The notes beneath the pieces are model-generated. The model ran no database searches and had not been told where the DNA came from. It saw only the letters and a list, made by a program, of their open reading frames with translations. From assembly GCF_030908545.1 (NCBI RefSeq), contig NZ_CP133083.1, positions 496,001-560,000 on the forward strand: a stretch of 64,000 nucleotides of DNA, given 5' to 3'. Numbering within the stretch: the first letter of the stretch is position 1; every line of letters starts with the position of its first letter. The DNA comes from Nitrosomonas sp. sh817 (GTDB lineage: Bacteria; Pseudomonadota; Gammaproteobacteria; Burkholderiales; Nitrosomonadaceae). Positions 55,355 to 64,000 of the stretch are shown here, in pieces. The translations under genes were made by a program, and so were the position numbers.

Positions 55355-56338
55355 ATGTCCACATATCGAAATTTACAGCAGAATTCGGAAACGGAAGCCT
55401 CTGTGGTATCTATAGACAAGATAAGTAATGATAAACAGCAGGGCATCCGTGAATCCCGGGTAACGGACCATCAAGCTCAGCTTAAATTTGTGCATCCAGC
55501 TTCTGAAATAAAGCCGGATGCAAGTATTTCATTAACCTTTGACAAGGAAGCAGGAAAAAGTCGTTTAGCGACACGTGATCATTTTGGACAACTGTATGTG
55601 CAAAAGCCATTTTATCCTGAAGGCTCGGAAGTTTGCCACATAGTATTGGTTCATCCGCCCGGGGGAGTCGTCGGAGGGGACAGACTGGAAATAGCGAACC
55701 ATGTCGGCGCAGATGCTAGCGTGCAGATAACAACACCAGGTGCGGCAAAGTGGTACAGATCCAATGGTCACATTTCGTATCAAAATGTAACGCTTGATGT
55801 GAAAACCGGCGGTTCGATGGAGTGGTTGCCGCAAGAAACGATCTTTTTTGACGATGCGCAAGTGGAACTTGTTCAAAGCATCAATCTGGAAAAGAACGCA
55901 GTCTATATTGGATGCGAGATATTCTGTCTCGGGCGCACCGCTTTCGGTGAATCATTCAATACCGGTCAAATCAGGCAGAAAGTAACCATATGCAGGGAGA
56001 AAAAATTAATCTGGTACGAACAGCTTAATTTACGCGGTGGAAGCGAAGCGATGCGCAGTTCGCTCATTCTGGCTGATAAAACTGTTTGTGCAACCTTGTT
56101 AGCGGTTAGTGATTCAATTTGTTCCAACGAGTTAATTAATACACTTCGCAGTCTGACAGCTGACCTTGATAAAGGAGCCGGGATGCTGGGTGTCTCGCAA
56201 GTAAAATCAGTAATAGTAGCGCGTTATCTAGGTAACTCAAGTGAAGTTGCACGTATCGTGATGTTAAAGCTTTGGGGTGTTTTGCGTCCAGCGCTACTCG
56301 GACGCAAAGCAGAAGTTCCGCGCATGTGGAATACCTGA
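55355..56338 (+). CDS. ureD: urease accessory protein UreD
   Basis: A 327-residue accessory protein that, with UreF and UreG, loads nickel into apo-urease. The family core is visible: CHIVLVHPPGGVVGGDRLEI, QITTPGAAKWYRSNG, and MEWLPQETIFFDDAQVEL. About 45 residues before the core, rich in Ser, Glu and Lys, form an extension of the kind that varies between species. It starts the ureD-A-B-C run. The gene follows the porin gene by 230 bases and may have its own promoter. Confidence 0.93.
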   Translation: MSTYRNLQQNSETEASVVSIDKISNDKQQGIRESRVTDHQAQLKFVHPASEIKPDASISLTFDKEAGKSRLATRDHFGQLYVQKPFYPEGSEVCHIVLVHPPGGVVGGDRLEIANHVGADASVQITTPGAAKWYRSNGHISYQNVTLDVKTGGSMEWLPQETIFFDDAQVELVQSINLEKNAVYIGCEIFCLGRTAFGESFNTGQIRQKVTICREKKLIWYEQLNLRGGSEAMRSSLILADKTVCATLLAVSDSICSNELINTLRSLTADLDKGAGMLGVSQVKSVIVARYLGNSSEVARIVMLKLWGVLRPALLGRKAEVPRMWNT

Positions 56339-56410
56339 GTTAAGTTTCTTCGTTACGAATTGATTCTGTTGTTTCACGTATTTTAATGACTTATTTAAAA
56401 GGAGGTATTC

Positions 56411-56713
56411 ATGGATCTGACTCCACGAGAAAAAGACAAACTGCAAATTTTTACTGCCGGACTCCTTGCTGAGAGACGTAAAGCACGCGGTGTAAAGCTG
56501 AACTATCCTGAAGCAGTTGCTTTGATTACATGTGCTGTTCTCGAAGGGGCGCGCGATGGCCGCACAGTTGCTGAGCTAATGGCCGCAGGCGCGCGCGTTC
56601 TGACCCGCGCGGATGTCATGGAAGGCGTTCCTGAAATGATCCATGACATTCAGGTTGAAGCTACCTTTCCAGATGGCACCAAACTGGTAACTGTTCATAA
56701 CCCGATTTCTTAA
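56411..56713 (+). CDS. ureA: urease gamma subunit
   Basis: A 100-residue subunit starting [20 protein letters not shown], with the family-typical [20 protein letters not shown] and the C-terminal [24 protein letters not shown] lies directly before the ATG, a strong ribosome site. It is a structural part of the urease (UreABC)3 complex. Confidence 0.97.
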
Positions 56714-56737
56714 TAATTCTGCAAGGAGTAAACGACC

Positions 56738-57046
56738 ATGATTCCAGGAGAAACCATCATTGAGTCAGGCGAGATAGAACTAAATGCCGGCCGGAACACA
56801 AAAACAATCAGAGTTAAAAATGCAGGCGACCGCCCGGTTCAGGTGGGCTCTCATTTTCATTTTTTTGAAGCGAACTCTGCGCTTGACTTCGATCGGCAAC
56901 AGGCTTACGGCATGCGATTGAATATTATGGCGGGAACCGCGATTCGTTTTGAACCGGGCCAGGAGCGTACCGTTGAGCTCGTTGATCTTGCAGGGAGCAG
57001 AATAATCTATGGATTTAACCAAAAAGTTATGGGCCCGCTTGTTTAA
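56738..57046 (+). CDS. ureB: urease beta subunit
   Basis: A 102-residue subunit beginning [20 protein letters not shown], with [20 protein letters not shown] and [20 protein letters not shown], both signatures of UreB. AAGGAG lies before the ATG. The ureC start is about 55 bases downstream. Confidence 0.97.
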
Positions 57047-57101
57047 TCAATCTGATGATAAGCAGCAACCACAGAACAGACAATCAAAAGGAGCAGAAAA
57101 T

Positions 57102-58808
57102 ATGAGCTTTAAAATTTCGCGCCAGGCCTATGCTGAAATGATGGGGCCGACTACTGGGGACAGAGTTCGTTTAGCAGATACTGAACTGTTCATCGAAATA
57201 GAAAGCGATTACACCATTTACGGCGAGGAAGTTAAATTTGGCGGCGGCAAGGTCATCCGCGACGGCATGGGACAATCACAGCGTAACCATGCGGATGTTA
57301 TGGATACAGTTATCACTAATGTGATCATTATTGACTACTGGGGCATAGTGAAGGCGGATGTTGGGCTTAAGAATGGCAGAGTTGCGGCAATCGGTAAATC
57401 GGGTAATCCCGATATACAACCAGGGGTTACGATGGCCATCGGCGCCGCTACCGAAATTATTGCCGGGGAAGGGCAGATTCTTACAGCCGGCGGTTTGGAT
57501 ACACACATCCACTTTATTTGTCCGCAGCAGGAAGAAGATGCCATGATGAATGGCATTACCACAATGCTGGGAGGCGGTACCGGTCCAGCGGTGGGAACGC
57601 TGGCGACTACCTGTACGCCGGGTCCTTGGCATATCCATTCAATGTTGCGGGCCTCCGACGGAATGGTCATGAATACTGGATTTTTTGGCAAAGGCAATGT
57701 CAGTTTACCGACACCGAATATAGAGCAGATTCTGGCGGGTGCATGCGGTTTGAAGCTGCATGAGGACTGGGGTACAACGTATGCTGCGATTGATAACTGT
57801 CTGACGGTTGCCGACAAAATGGACGTACAGGTGGCGATTCATACCGATACGATTAACGAGGGCGGTTATCTCGAGAATACAATCAAAGCGATGAAAGGCA
57901 GAACGATTCATACATTTCATACCGAGGGTGCAGGAGGCGGGCACGCACCGGACATTATGAAAGTTGTTGAATATGACAATGTGTTGCCTTCGTCGACCAA
58001 TCCGACGCGCCCTTATACCCGCAATACGCTGGATGAACATCTGGATATGCTGATGGTATGTCATCATTTAAGTCCTGCGATTCCGGAAGATGTCGCTTTT
58101 GCTGAATCCCGGATTCGCAAGGAAACCATCGCAGCCGAGGATATTTTGCATGACATCGGAGCTATATCGATGATGTCTTCAGATTCGCAAGCCATGGGAC
58201 GTATTGGCGAAGTGGTGACAAGAACATGGCAAACCGCGCATAAAATGAAGGTTCAACGCGGCGCACTCAAAGAAGATTCAGCGAGAAACGACAATTTCAG
58301 GGTGAAACGCTATATTGCCAAATACACAATCAACCCGGCGATTTGTCATGGCATTTCGCATGCTGTGGGGTCGATTGAAGTCGGGAAATATGCCGATTTG
58401 GTGTTGTGGAGACCGGCGCATTTCGGTGTCAAACCTTCAATGGTATTGAAGGGAGGCATGATTACGGCTGCATTGATGGGCGATCCGAATGCCTCAATTC
58501 CCACACCACAACCCGTACATTACCGGTACATGTTTGGCGCCTATGGCACCGCACTGAGAAATACTTGTTATACATTTGTATCAGAAGCCTCCTTGAATGC
58601 CGGTTTGGTGGATTTTCTTAAAACCGAGAAACCATTGATTGCGGTTAAGAACACTCGCGGTCTGCGCAAAAAGGACATGATTCATAATGGCGCAACGCCA
58701 AAGATGGAAATCAATCCTGAGACTTATGAAGTTCGCGCTGACGGAGAATTGTTGATTTGTGAGCCCGCGATTACGCTTCCTATGGCTCAGCGTTACTTTC
58801 TATTTTAG
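57102..58808 (+). CDS. ureC: urease alpha (catalytic) subunit
   Basis: A 568-residue subunit that hydrolyses urea to ammonia and carbamate. Active-site residues are in place: [11 protein letters not shown] (nickel His pair), LKLHEDWG (carbamylated Lys), the His of [31 protein letters not shown] (flap with Cys and catalytic His) and [12 protein letters not shown] (nickel Asp). The start [14 protein letters not shown] at 57102 follows AAAGGAG; an upstream in-frame ATG at 57009 lies inside ureB. A hairpin follows the stop before ureF. Confidence 0.98.
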
Positions 58809-58831
58809 AAACACTTGGTTGGTTCTTCTCG

Positions 58832-58863
58832 GCAAAAGAACGATTCCGGAATCTTTCTTTTGC
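58832..58863. other. hairpin between ureC and ureF
   Basis: GCAAAAGAA pairs with TTCTTTTGC, with an inner palindrome ATTCCGGAAT in the loop. It lies 24 bases after the ureC stop and about 170 before ureF. No T-run follows. It may slow 3' decay of the structural-gene message or reduce ureF expression. Confidence 0.5.
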
Positions 58864-59035
58864 TGAATCCCAAGCTCGAAGTAAAGTTTTCATTAAACAT
58901 CACAAATGTCGGGTGTTTTCATGATTGCACCACGAATTACAGGCGTTTCCGTGACAGCTTGATTGTTAAAAAATCGAATAAATAGATGCCGTTGCTTTTT
59001 GATAATTATCTTAACGTGTACCGATACTCGAAAAA

Positions 59036-59725
59036 ATGATAAACGAGGGACAATCCGCAGAGTTACTAAGCTTACTGCACTTGGCAAGCCCATCATTACC
59101 GATTGGTGCCTATACATACTCGCAAGGCTTGGAAGCGGCAATAGAAATCGGCAATGTAACCAACGAAGAATCCGCGCAGGCCTGGATTAAAGAATCCTTA
59201 TCCGTTGTTGCCGATTTCGAGGCGCCGGTTTTTTGGCGCCTGTTGCAAGCTTTTTCAAACAAAAACGAATCGGAGGTTACACGCTGGACGGAAATATTTC
59301 TTGTCTCTCGAGATACCCATGAATTTAGAGCTGAAACCATTCAGATGGGTTATTCGCTGAGCAAGTTGATACTTGACTTGAATGTGGCTAACGAAACGCT
59401 GCAGTCAATGATGGCACATCAAACAGAAATTCCGTTGCCAACCGCATTCGCTTGCGCAGCCGTTGCATTGAAGCTATCGCATAAAGCTGCGCTGCTGGGT
59501 TTCTTATTTTCAATAATAGAAAATCAGGTGCTGGTATGTGTTAAATCCGTACCGCTTGGGCAAGTTGCAGGTCAGCGCCTGTTGCTGTCGCTTCATCCGG
59601 AAATAGAAATAGCGGCTGAACGTGCAATACAGCTCGAAGATAATGAGCTTTCCAATTGGGCGCCCGGCTTATCGATTTTGTCGATGATGCATGAAATACA
59701 ATACAGCCGAATTTATCGATCCTAA
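59036..59725 (+). CDS. ureF: urease accessory protein UreF
   Basis: A 229-residue helical accessory protein that helps UreG and UreD activate urease. Signature stretches are LLHLASPSLPIGAYTYSQGL and HQTEIPLPTAFACAAVALKL, with AVYS-type QVLVCVKSVPLGQVAGQRLL near the end. It follows ureC by about 227 bases, unusual spacing since ureE is elsewhere. ureG follows by 23 bases. Confidence 0.93.
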   Translation: MINEGQSAELLSLLHLASPSLPIGAYTYSQGLEAAIEIGNVTNEESAQAWIKESLSVVADFEAPVFWRLLQAFSNKNESEVTRWTEIFLVSRDTHEFRAETIQMGYSLSKLILDLNVANETLQSMMAHQTEIPLPTAFACAAVALKLSHKAALLGFLFSIIENQVLVCVKSVPLGQVAGQRLLLSLHPEIEIAAERAIQLEDNELSNWAPGLSILSMMHEIQYSRIYRS

Positions 59726-59748
59726 AACAATAACTTGGAATATACCGT

Positions 59749-60378
59749 ATGACACAAAAATCTAATCCGCTCCGTGTCGGCATAGGCGGGCCAGTTGGTT
59801 CCGGCAAAACCGCTCTGTGTGAAATATTAAGCAAGAAAATGCGCGACAAATACGAAATGGCGGTAATTACAAACGATATTTATACCAAGGAAGATCTTGA
59901 AATCTTATTGCGTGCTGAAGCGCTTCCTGCGGAAAGGTTGATTGGCGTGGAAACCGGCGGTTGTCCTCATACCGCAATTAGAGAAGATGCTTCTATTAAT
60001 CTCGAAGCGATCGCCCGCATTACCCAGGAATTTCCAAATTTGGATCTGATACTTGTTGAGTCGGGCGGTGATAATTTAGCGTCCACATTCAGTCCCGAAT
60101 TATCGGATTTGACCATTTACGTCATTGATGTTGCCGGCGGAGAAAAAATACCCAGAAAAGGCGGACCGGGTATTACACGATCCGCTTTGCTGGTCATAAA
60201 CAAAATTGATTTGGCTCCGTATGTTGGTGCCGATCTGGATGTTATGGCGCGCGATGCCAAAAAGATGCGTGGTGACCGGCCCTTCGTCTTTACCAATATG
60301 CGCACAGGCCAGGGGGTTCAGGAAATAATTGATTTTATTGTGAAACAAGGTCTTCTGGAAGAAGTGGGAGCGCATTAA
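59749..60378 (+). CDS. ureG: urease accessory GTPase UreG
   Basis: A 209-residue GTPase that provides energy and carries nickel during urease assembly. P-loop [11 protein letters not shown], the metal-binding CPH motif in [23 protein letters not shown] and NKID are all in place. Confidence 0.96.
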
Positions 60379-60482: not shown

Positions 60483-61463
60483 ATGCAATGGGCAGTGAAA
60501 ATAGATATGGCTTTGCCACGTCCAATCCGAGTAATACTGAGGGGTGTAGGTCAAGTATTTTTTTGCGGTAATGCTGTTACTGGCCTTGTTTTTTTGGTTG
60601 CGCTATATATTGGCGGCACAACCGCTGGATTGGCGGCGACTGTGGGCGTGATTACAAGTACGATCACCGCTGTTCTGCTTGGTTTCTCGGAAGATGATAT
60701 CGATGCCGGACTCTATGGATTTAACGGCACTTTGGTTGGGCCGTGCCTGTTCTTGTTTCTTGAGAACACGCCGCTGCTGTGGGTTTACGTCGTATTCGCT
60801 GCAATTTTATCGAGCGTCGTGCTGGCTGCAATGATCAAAATTCTGACTCCCTACAAAATACCCGCTTCAACATCACCCTTTGTGTTGACCTGTTGGATGT
60901 TTATGGTTGCGATATATTCTTTTGAGGCACTATCCCCGAGTCCTGTTTTGCCGGTGCCGGGGATACCCGAAGCGATTGCAAGCGCAAACCTGCCTGTCGC
61001 AGCCTGGCTTTCGTCCTTTACGGATAATACGATTGAGCTATGGTATGTGGCGCTGGCCAAAGGAATTGCAGAAGTCATGTTTGCAGATAATGTACTGGTT
61101 GGGATTCTATTTCTAATCGGTATTTTAATTACTTCGGCGCGTGGTGCCGTCATGGCGTTTTGCGGAACATTTGTCGGTGTTTTGGTGCCGATTCATCTAG
61201 GTGCGAGCCAAAATCTAATCGAAATGGGATTATATGCGTTTAATCCGGTACTAACCATGATGGCAGTGGGTTGGGTTTTTCTCAAACCGTCAACCGGAAC
61301 CGCCATCCTGGCATTTCTGGCTGGTATTCTGACTGTCATTTGTCAGGCGGCTCTAGCCAATTTCCTGGCGCCAATCGGTTTACCCACTCTGACATTTCCA
61401 TTTGTATTGACCATGTGGATGTTCTTATTTGCAGCGGGAATGTCTAAACACTGGTCATCGTAA
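60483..61463 (+). CDS. UT-family urea transporter
   Basis: A 326-residue inner-membrane channel with about ten hydrophobic helices. It has the repeated family signature, seen as DIDAGLYGFNGTLVG in the first half and EMGLYAFNPVLTMMAVGW in the second, the inverted-repeat architecture of UT channels. It lies 104 bases after ureG, with a good GGAGAT ribosome site, so urea import and hydrolysis are probably co-regulated. Confidence 0.93.
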   Translation: MQWAVKIDMALPRPIRVILRGVGQVFFCGNAVTGLVFLVALYIGGTTAGLAATVGVITSTITAVLLGFSEDDIDAGLYGFNGTLVGPCLFLFLENTPLLWVYVVFAAILSSVVLAAMIKILTPYKIPASTSPFVLTCWMFMVAIYSFEALSPSPVLPVPGIPEAIASANLPVAAWLSSFTDNTIELWYVALAKGIAEVMFADNVLVGILFLIGILITSARGAVMAFCGTFVGVLVPIHLGASQNLIEMGLYAFNPVLTMMAVGWVFLKPSTGTAILAFLAGILTVICQAALANFLAPIGLPTLTFPFVLTMWMFLFAAGMSKHWSS

Positions 61464-61505: not shown

Positions 61506-62252
61506 ATGCCGGTTTTAGGAAAGCAAGAAACGCAACAAAGAAGGCTTTTGCTTAAAATGACTACGGCATCCTTGCTTGGTTTGAGCCTACCGTTTTCGGG
61601 TACAGCAAATGCAATATCCGAAATAGTAAAAATACCGCCTATTCCCGAGAACGTATTAAGTCCAGAAGCTGCTCTTGAACGCTTGATGAAAGGGAATGAA
61701 CGGTATGTCACGAACAATTCAACACCGCTGAATTTTAAAGATGAGCGATTGGATCTGGTCAAAGGGCAGAATCCATTTGCCTGTATTCTTAGTTGCTCGG
61801 ATTCCCGTGTGAGTCCGGAATTCTGTTTTGATGAACAACGTGGAGATTTATTTGTAGCACGCGTGGCGGGCAATTACATTACCACAGATTTTATTGCAAC
61901 CCTTGAATACGCTGCTGCTGTTTTGCACGTTCCGTTAATCATGGTTCTGGGACATGAGAGTTGCGGAGCTATCAAAGCAGCAATCGATGCAACGGATAAT
62001 TACCAGCAGTTTCCAGGACATATACAGACAATTGCCACGGCACTGACTCCGGCAGTCAGGGCTGTACGCATAACCCCGGATTATGTTGCCAGTGACCGGT
62101 ATTTCGACATTGTTAAAAAGAATGTCGTGCTCAATGTTGAAGAATTAAGAAAACAGCCGCCCATCTTGAGCCGGTTGGTTGATAGCAAGAAACTCAAGAT
62201 CGTAGGGGGGGTATATCATCTCAGAACCGGAAAAGTTGAGTTAATTTCATAA
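61506..62252 (+). CDS. exported beta-class carbonic anhydrase
   Basis: A 248-residue beta-carbonic anhydrase. The zinc site is intact: Cys and Asp in ILSCSDSRVSPE, His and Cys in VLGHESCGAIKAA, with the RVAGNYITTDFIATLEYA stretch between. The N-terminus has an RR pair followed by a hydrophobic stretch (QQRRLLLKMTTASLLGLSLP), a twin-arginine-like signal with cleavage near TANA, so the enzyme is probably periplasmic. It follows the urea transporter by about 42 bases. It would interconvert CO2 and bicarbonate near urea and ammonia metabolism. Confidence 0.92.
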   Translation: MPVLGKQETQQRRLLLKMTTASLLGLSLPFSGTANAISEIVKIPPIPENVLSPEAALERLMKGNERYVTNNSTPLNFKDERLDLVKGQNPFACILSCSDSRVSPEFCFDEQRGDLFVARVAGNYITTDFIATLEYAAAVLHVPLIMVLGHESCGAIKAAIDATDNYQQFPGHIQTIATALTPAVRAVRITPDYVASDRYFDIVKKNVVLNVEELRKQPPILSRLVDSKKLKIVGGVYHLRTGKVELIS

Positions 62253-62315: not shown

Positions 62316-64000
62316 ATGCTTACCCGATATATTTCCACGAAGCACTCCGCATTCTTTTTGTTGATCTCGCTGCTTTTGCTTGGTTTAATTATTGCGTTTT
62401 TGCCTTCCTCTCACGCGCAATTTACATTCAATTTCTATTTCGCTAAGGACTGGAGTGAAGGATTCCTGCATCCGCTAATGGGCTGGGATCATATTCTCGT
62501 GATGGTGGCGGTGGGCATCTGGGCTGCTCAGATACGAGGACAGGCCCTGTGGATATTGCCTGCTGTATTTGTCGGTATCATGAGTCTTGGCGGCCTGACG
62601 GGTGCTGCCAGCTATGCTGTTCCAGGCGCGGAAGCCATGGTTCTTTTATCCTGTTTCATGATCAGCGCCTTGATCATATGCGGGGTACGATTCAGCGCAC
62701 CGGCCAATATCATTATTATTTCCCTGTTTGCATTTTTTCATGGTTATGTGCACGGACAGGAAATCTCGGCCTCCACCAGCCTTGGTTTTTACATTGCAGG
62801 TTTTGTGTCCGCCACACTACTACTACATGGCGTCGGGATTCTGATTTCATGGCTGATCGTGCTAGCGTTTACTTTCTTTTTCAGCACCAGTATTCATGCC
62901 CAGGGAAAAGACCTGCCAGCTTATGCAAATACTGCTGAACGTGGTTCACAGACCAATAAACTTGCCCATGCGACTCTGGATGAAGTGCGTGTTACCGGCC
63001 GTGCCGATGAACTGACCGGCATCGCCGACGCCGCTTCACAAGGCAAAGTCGGGCAGGATCAAATCCGGTACCGGCCGATGACTCGTCCCGGAGAAATTCT
63101 GGAAACGGTGCCGGGACTCATCGCTACCCAGCACAGCGGCGAAGGTAAAGCGAATCAGTTTTTTTTGCGTGGCTTCAATCTGGATCATGGCACCGATTTT
63201 CTCACGCAGATCGAAGGCGTGCCGGTCAATCAGCTTTCTCATGCCCACGGGCAGGGCTGGACGGATATCAATTTCCTGATCCCGGAATTAATCGAATCGA
63301 TCGAATTCAGAAAAGGAAATTATTACGCCGACACCGGGGATTTCTCCAGCGCCGGATCAGCCAACATCCGCTACTTCAACCGTCTGCCCCAAAATATGCT
63401 GCGCTTCACCGGCGGCAGTTTTGATTATTACCGGGGATTGATCGCCGGATCACGTCGGCTATCACAAGGCAATGTGTTGTATGCCGGCGAGATCGTGCAC
63501 AACGACGGCCCGTGGACTACCGGAAATAATTATCTGAAGTTCAACGGCCTGATCCGGTACAGCGGCAGCAACGGCAACCAGGACTGGCGTATCACCGCGA
63601 TGGGAACGCATTCGGATTGGCGCGCGACCGATCAAATCCCGAGGCGGGCTATCGGGATGGACACTATCCGCCGGTTCGACGCGATCGACCCGACCGATGG
63701 CGGAAAAAGTCATCGCTACAGCCTGACGGGCGAATGGAACCGGCGCTCGGAAAACAGCCTGACGTCGGTCATGGCGTACGGCATTTACTCCAAACTGGAC
63801 CTTTATTCGAATTTCTCTTTTCTTCTGGATAATAATGAAACGACCAATCCGGTGGGATGCTCGGGGTTAAACGGTTTACAGTCCGCCAACCGGATTTCCA
63901 CGAGCATATTCCAGACCTGCGGCGATCAGTTCGGTCAGCCCGACGACCGCTGGACAACCGGCCTGGCGGCCAGCCACACGGTATTTCATAAAATCGGCCG
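62316..64000 (+). CDS. HupE/UreJ-TonB-dependent receptor fusion (open at window end)
   Basis: One uninterrupted frame of 561 codons runs to the window edge. Residues 1-35 are a signal-like helix. Residues about 50-180 match the HupE/UreJ nickel permease family: HPLMGWDHILVMVAVGIWAA, FAFFHGYVHGQE, and LLLHGVGI. From residue 180 a hydrophobic stretch LIVLAFTFFFSTSIHAQG looks like a second signal peptide. From 222 (DEVRVTGRADEL) a TonB-dependent receptor plug and barrel follow, with RPGEILETVPGLIATQHSG and FFLRGFNLDHGTDFLT. An in-frame stop lies just upstream at 62307, so no earlier start exists. The frame was checked codon by codon. Context is a urease cluster, so nickel uptake is the natural guess. 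Confidence 0.82.
   Translation, partial: MLTRYISTKHSAFFLLISLLLLGLIIAFLPSSHAQFTFNFYFAKDWSEGFLHPLMGWDHILVMVAVGIWAAQIRGQALWILPAVFVGIMSLGGLTGAASYAVPGAEAMVLLSCFMISALIICGVRFSAPANIIIISLFAFFHGYVHGQEISASTSLGFYIAGFVSATLLLHGVGILISWLIVLAFTFFFSTSIHAQGKDLPAYANTAERGSQTNKLAHATLDEVRVTGRADELTGIADAASQGKVGQDQIRYRPMTRPGEILETVPGLIATQHSGEGKANQFFLRGFNLDHGTDFLTQIEGVPVNQLSHAHGQGWTDINFLIPELIESIEFRKGNYYADTGDFSSAGSANIRYFNRLPQNMLRFTGGSFDYYRGLIAGSRRLSQGNVLYAGEIVHNDGPWTTGNNYLKFNGLIRYSGSNGNQDWRITAMGTHSDWRATDQIPRRAIGMDTIRRFDAIDPTDGGKSHRYSLTGEWNRRSENSLTSVMAYGIYSKLDLYSNFSFLLDNNETTNPVGCSGLNGLQSANRISTSIFQTCGDQFGQPDDRWTTGLAASHTVFHKIG

Follow-up and report, generated by a model that had tools for sequence, protein, structure and literature searches.

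A HupE–TonB-dependent receptor fusion beside urease in Nitrosomonas sp. sh817, a likely natural polyprotein for uptake of metal through both membranes

Why would an inner-membrane permease and an outer-membrane receptor share one reading frame, and would the cell obtain one protein or two from it? This question is raised by a gene at the end of a 64,000-nucleotide stretch (hereafter, the window) of the complete genome of Nitrosomonas sp. sh817 (3.15 Mb, two contigs). Positions 62316-64000 form a single frame of 561 codons without a stop. The window ends inside this gene, which in full has 904 codons (904 aa; L003:4317-7031, where L003 position p corresponds to window position 57999+p) and stops at L003:7031. 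As a preliminary description had proposed, the frame joins a HupE/UreJ protein to a TonB-dependent receptor: the Pfam matches are HupE_UreJ at residues 44-181 (E 3e-37), Plug at 244-347 (E 7e-14), and the barrel at 404-858 (E 1e-21). The features of the gene and its upstream neighbors are as follows.

55355..60378, + strand: urease operon ureD, ureA, ureB, ureC, ureF, ureG (open reading frames; urease alpha by PF00449 in the ureC frame, other names from sequence and gene order)
60483..61463, + strand: urea transporter (UT; Pfam PF03253, E 8.5e-90)
61506..62252, + strand: carbonic anhydrase with an N-terminal export signal (Pfam PF00484)
62316..64000, + strand: HupE-TonB-dependent-receptor fusion gene, whose stop, at what would be position 65030, falls outside the window
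62343..62411, + strand: N-terminal hydrophobic helix, residues 10-32 (AlphaFold2 helix 10-32)
62445..62858, + strand: HupE_UreJ domain, residues 44-181, with invariant HPxxGxDH, HGxxHGxE, and His171 (Pfam PF04955, E 3e-37; invariant columns)
62850..62900, + strand: predicted internal signal peptide and last HupE helix, residues 179-195 (junction alignment of 31 fusions)
62898..62903, + strand: predicted signal peptidase I site Ala195/Gln196 (residue pattern at -3, -1, and +1 in 31 fusions)
62901..62978, + strand: fast-evolving linker, residues 196-221 (dN/dS 0.2-1.0 in most pairs)
62979..62999, + strand: TonB-box-like DEVRVTG, residues 222-228 (sequence and alignment; assigned by resemblance alone)
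63045..63356, + strand: Plug domain, residues 244-347 (Pfam PF07715)
63525..64000, + strand: start of the beta-barrel, residue 404 onward (Pfam PF00593; TonB-dependent-transporter fold)

The HupE half scores 128 bits against PF04955 (cut-off 23) and is like HupE/UreJ in this domain match and in its HPxxGxDH and HGxxHGxE motifs. Its invariant residues are H52, D58, H59, H142, H146, E149, and H171, and the HupE signature residues are unchanged in all 56 aligned HupE rows, fused and standalone. A cleaved N-terminal signal that leaves His as the first mature residue is a usual HupE trait outside the Pfam definition. A segment that looks like such a signal, with the A/H pattern of ordinary HupE, is present in the fusions of Methylotuvimicrobium and of the Verrucomicrobiia and Umea MAGs, and was not seen in the window copy. 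The receptor half has both the plug (PF07715) and the barrel (PF00593) of a TonB-dependent receptor, and the model of a relative's near-identical protein gave fold matches to PqqU, FecA, and OprC (E down to 2e-31). No solved homologue was found by sequence, no significant match was obtained in a fold search with the HupE model, and no Rfam family matched near the gene.

The junction was aligned among relatives, as the preliminary description had proposed, in a set of 31 fusions that come from Nitrosomonas, Methylococcales, and two MAGs (one from Verrucomicrobiia, one unclassified). According to that description, the last hydrophobic segment looked like the receptor's own signal peptide and could be cut after His-Ala. 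The alignment agrees, placing the segment at residues 179-195 and the site at A195/Q196, and the segment has the layout of a textbook Sec signal peptide, with a signal peptidase I pattern that is near-invariant among the relatives. Position -17 is Arg or Lys in 26 fusions (sh817 and Nm51 have Trp in place of Arg), followed by a short hydrophobic core and Ser or Gly at -6. Position -3 is Ile, Leu, Val, or Ala in all 31, position -1 is Ala in 30 and Gly in one, and position +1 is Gln in 28, while position -2 and the linker vary freely. From the predicted cut, the sequence reads QGKDLPAYANTAER in the sh817 fusion and QAVADDEDSG... in that of M. buryatense; a DEVRVTG-like segment about 26 residues downstream is a TonB box by resemblance alone. 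The signal-peptide call is based on this conservation and on general rules, and cleavage after Ala195 is accordingly a prediction from sequence. Pairwise dN/dS values are 0.02-0.15 (HupE), 0-0.09 (plug), and 0.05-0.13 (barrel); those of the linker are mostly 0.2-1.0. Purifying selection is strong on the two halves and relaxed in the linker, which indicates that both halves are maintained as working proteins.

We consider it likely that the gene encodes a naturally occurring polyprotein for bringing metal through both membranes, which signal peptidase I would cut after Ala195 into HupE and the receptor. One precursor chain would be made, the HupE half would insert in the inner membrane N-in with its C-terminus facing the periplasm, and the last hydrophobic HupE segment would double as the Sec signal peptide of the receptor. 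After the predicted cut, HupE would remain in the inner membrane and retain segment 179-195 as a final helix, in the position that the sixth helix has in ordinary HupE. The receptor, with Gln196 as its mature N-terminus and the putative TonB box some 26 residues on, would go to the outer membrane. The loop charges of HupE alternate, with K/R inside and D/E outside, and by the positive-inside rule this argues for an N-in, C-out topology that places the end of the segment and the receptor on the periplasmic side. AlphaFold2 modeled residues 156-195 as one continuous 40-residue helix, with no sign of the hairpin that the polyprotein requires. Because its input was shallow (56 rows, only 24 with the junction) and included no membrane, we regard this helix as a caution rather than a refutation.

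Which metal would such a polyprotein carry? Nickel and copper are needed by key enzymes of the hosts, namely urease and the ammonia and methane monooxygenases. HupE/UreJ permeases have been linked to nickel and cobalt (PMC4284471). In the window, the order is urease operon, urea transporter, carbonic anhydrase, and fusion gene, the last starting 63 nt downstream of the carbonic anhydrase gene. This gap contains no terminator-like site, and the fusion gene is presumably co-transcribed with the upstream genes. Elsewhere in the genus, NikR-linked TonB-dependent receptors that are about 45% identical to the fusion receptor occupy the same urease neighborhood. Unlike the fusion, they are encoded by a separate gene with its own N-terminal signal peptide, adjoining the NikR gene. 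This separate receptor and NikR co-occur in 42 of the 50 urease-positive Nitrosomonas genomes. In four genomes (G000, G087, G108, and G086), the fusion was observed next to urease; all four lack NikR and the separate receptor, as does a fifth fusion genome (G010) in which fusion and urease are on different contigs. The fusion thus appears to stand in for the nickel receptor, a pattern that comes from one genus and is uncorrected for kinship, such that its Fisher p of 0.001 is descriptive only. For the urease-linked window copy we favor nickel, with copper or cobalt as possible substrates.

The same polyprotein may instead carry copper, for ammonia or methane monooxygenase, a reading that we regard as possible if somewhat doubtful. 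At 1.85 Mb of the same genome lies a second in-frame fusion copy, of 929 codons, with the locus order fusion, thioredoxin-like, BNR protein, CopC, and a conserved open reading frame. A lone amoC precedes the fusion at the copC locus of G034 (L034:1-798), and a CopC-like gene and a HupE_UreJ_2-like gene occur at methanotroph loci L087, L088, and L105. These neighbors point to copper, and the receptor model resembles the copper receptor OprC, among many others. However, the window copy closes a run of urease and urea-transport genes, its separate homologue elsewhere in the genus adjoins NikR and urease, and no copC neighbor is present in the stretch read at the M. buryatense locus (L094) and in two outlier hosts. 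A strict link to ammonia or methane monooxygenase fails, as the two outlier genomes have no match to AMO/pMMO subunit A. For the CopC-linked paralog, we have no preference between nickel and copper. Of the nickel-import polyprotein suggested in the preliminary description, the polyprotein is supported by the junction, while nickel draws on the urease neighborhood and the replacement pattern, and the sister locus carries copC.

The conserved gene beside copC in the fusion operon (L004:10423-11280; relatives at L034:7248, L035:6475, and L088:11285) has about 220-285 codons and no Pfam match; the sh817 copy also has no NCBIfam match. Some members look like lipoproteins.

Could the chain work without being cut? 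The frame is continuous in every fusion and a linker lies between the two halves, so an uncut chimera that tethers outer and inner membranes as one protein is conceivable. We consider this improbable, as the strict signal-peptidase pattern is kept at the junction while adjoining positions drift, and it is implausible on general grounds that a barrel still held in the inner membrane could be delivered to the outer one. Even less probable is that two proteins arise by internal translation initiation near the junction. Several fusions have an in-frame ATG, GTG, or TTG there, including the GTG at 62859 (residue 182) that the preliminary description had pointed out as lacking a ribosome site. This GTG is not conserved and has no Shine-Dalgarno sequence in any relative having it. 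Across the 31 aligned fusions, no start is conserved in place ahead of the signal segment, almost all starts upstream of the cut site lack a Shine-Dalgarno sequence, and no conserved start codon with a ribosome site was found before the cut, which speaks against an internal start. The more widely shared start candidates, at residues 224 and 245, fall past the signal peptide, such that export would fail, and an internal start would still leave HupE made as a fusion. Sequencing error, frameshift, or gene decay can be dismissed: although homopolymers are present (the basis of an error alternative raised earlier), the fusion gene is decayed in relative G016, and G026, which lacks the HupE half, shows a frame break, the second intact copy in this complete genome, the same joined frame at 28 loci of other genomes, and the low dN/dS exclude it.

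The fusion is real. The junction in sh817 has neither a stop nor a frameshift, and hupE and the receptor gene are not always separate among relatives, though separate-gene relatives do exist. The two fused copies are the only PF04955 matches in the genome. They are 98.5% identical in DNA from about window position 62466 to the stop codon, a stretch that spans the HupE-receptor junction (L003:4430-7031 versus L004:5622-8222), whereas their N-terminal ~45 residues differ. In the receptor tree, the bodies of both copies group with ACE_PRO53, a relative linked to CopC. At its N-terminus, the window copy instead resembles genes linked to urease in Nm51 and ACE_PRO54. Most simply, this would mean that most of the urease-linked copy was recently overwritten by the CopC-linked one, and the two stretches may record recent gene conversion or duplication. 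In one relative, the contig stops inside hupE (L030; G002:C207) near where the two sh817 copies become identical, as expected if the repeat broke the assembly. Draft genomes may conceal a second fusion copy.

How widespread is the arrangement? A scan of 84,980 species genomes found 28 fusion loci, in Nitrosomonas, in Methyloglobulus, Methylobacter, Methylomagnum, Methylotuvimicrobium, and other Methylococcales, and in two outliers, a Verrucomicrobiia MAG and an unclassified MAG. Overall, besides these outliers, at least 12 Nitrosomonas genomes other than sh817 and about 15 gammaproteobacterial methanotrophs have the fusion. Within the family, it is intact in G087, G108, G034, G086, G074, G015, G010, G105, G078, G031, and G028 (part masked in the last) and truncated by contig ends in G094 and G092. 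Genomes of the order (399), class (369), and phylum (398) gave no further kind of fusion host, and both parts are common separately in them. The class set contained the fusion only in sh817 itself and in one genome with coordinates matching Methylotuvimicrobium buryatense, and the phylum set only in sh817. Long frames around HupE in 11 Burkholderiales genomes (G477, G429, G478, G508, G358, G204, G481, G487, G152, G432, and G284) contained no receptor by tblastn.

In the receptor tree, which has some long branches and is unsure in its deep part, the Nitrosomonas clade (100/98) is nested in a methanotroph clade (100/100), and the fusion state requires five changes, at least four of them forced by strong branches. 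These patterns suggest that the fusion was probably transferred between methanotrophs and nitrifiers and that hupE and the receptor gene were repeatedly fused or split. One receptor within the fused clade (L105; 99/94) is encoded by a separate gene, where the corresponding segment, LALSIAIFIGSAAHA/QD, is the N-terminal signal peptide; this gene begins a few bases before the upstream hupE ends. In G026, which has no HupE half, the receptor follows a free-standing segment that resembles a signal peptide, and the frame break lies in the linker. On balance, we find it fairly probable that this dual-membrane polyprotein provides fixed 1:1 synthesis of permease and receptor for one metal route, that one segment serves as both signal peptide and permanent transporter helix, and that the module has moved between methanotrophs and nitrifiers, with the fusion gained or lost several times.

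HupE is made as a precursor that gives a six-helix protein (PMC4284471). The standalone HupE of Nitrosomonas has about 200 aa with its own sixth helix at the end, which in the fusion would be replaced by the signal peptide of the receptor; it resides in a hydrogenase-type cluster beside hypA/hypB-like genes, as judged by sequence. The fusion also suggests recruitment of a signal peptide for the role of a transporter helix. The nearest mechanistic precedent that we know of is FbcH of Bradyrhizobium japonicum, a cytochrome b-cytochrome c1 precursor that is cut at an internal signal peptide. In both cases, one gene encodes a membrane protein followed by an exported protein, and the fusion has the FbcH-type single frame, internal Sec signal, and conserved signal peptidase I site, with its cut predicted. 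However, both FbcH products remain in one inner-membrane complex, whereas the second product of the fusion belongs to the outer membrane. Few bacterial polyproteins are cut by signal peptidase, and we know of no example that serves the two membranes of a Gram-negative cell. The preliminary description likewise knew of no named example, and the open-access literature that we searched, which leaves out most subscription papers, contains no description of a HupE-receptor fusion. As far as we found, a bacterial polyprotein serving both membranes is undescribed; its parts belong to known families, and it is their arrangement that would be new. The fusion pairs an outer-membrane receptor with one particular inner-membrane permease, and the substrate of the receptor thereby becomes testable.

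Methanotroph loci with separate genes (L105, L109, L115, L117, L124, and others) encode the same two proteins in the same order as two genes, and their HupE, unlike that of the fusion, has a C-terminal extension, often with an SNGVGLTSPP-like motif. A long extension with a conserved FPDINxTPGxxLLSNGVGLTSPP-like motif is present at L096:4433-5845, L105:4614-5966, L109, L117, L120, L124, L134, and L136; the extended HupE of L096, the one scanned, has no Pfam match beyond HupE. The separate urease-linked receptor of L043:10070-12583 (G029) and G085:C157 appears to have a partly duplicated plug. In two methanotroph MAGs (L122:3034-4686 and L135:1616-3130), an extended HupE continues in frame into a second HupE by way of a further segment that resembles a signal peptide, e.g., LLFALSILLLPNFAHA/HS, and these HupE-HupE fusions may represent another type of polyprotein within this system.
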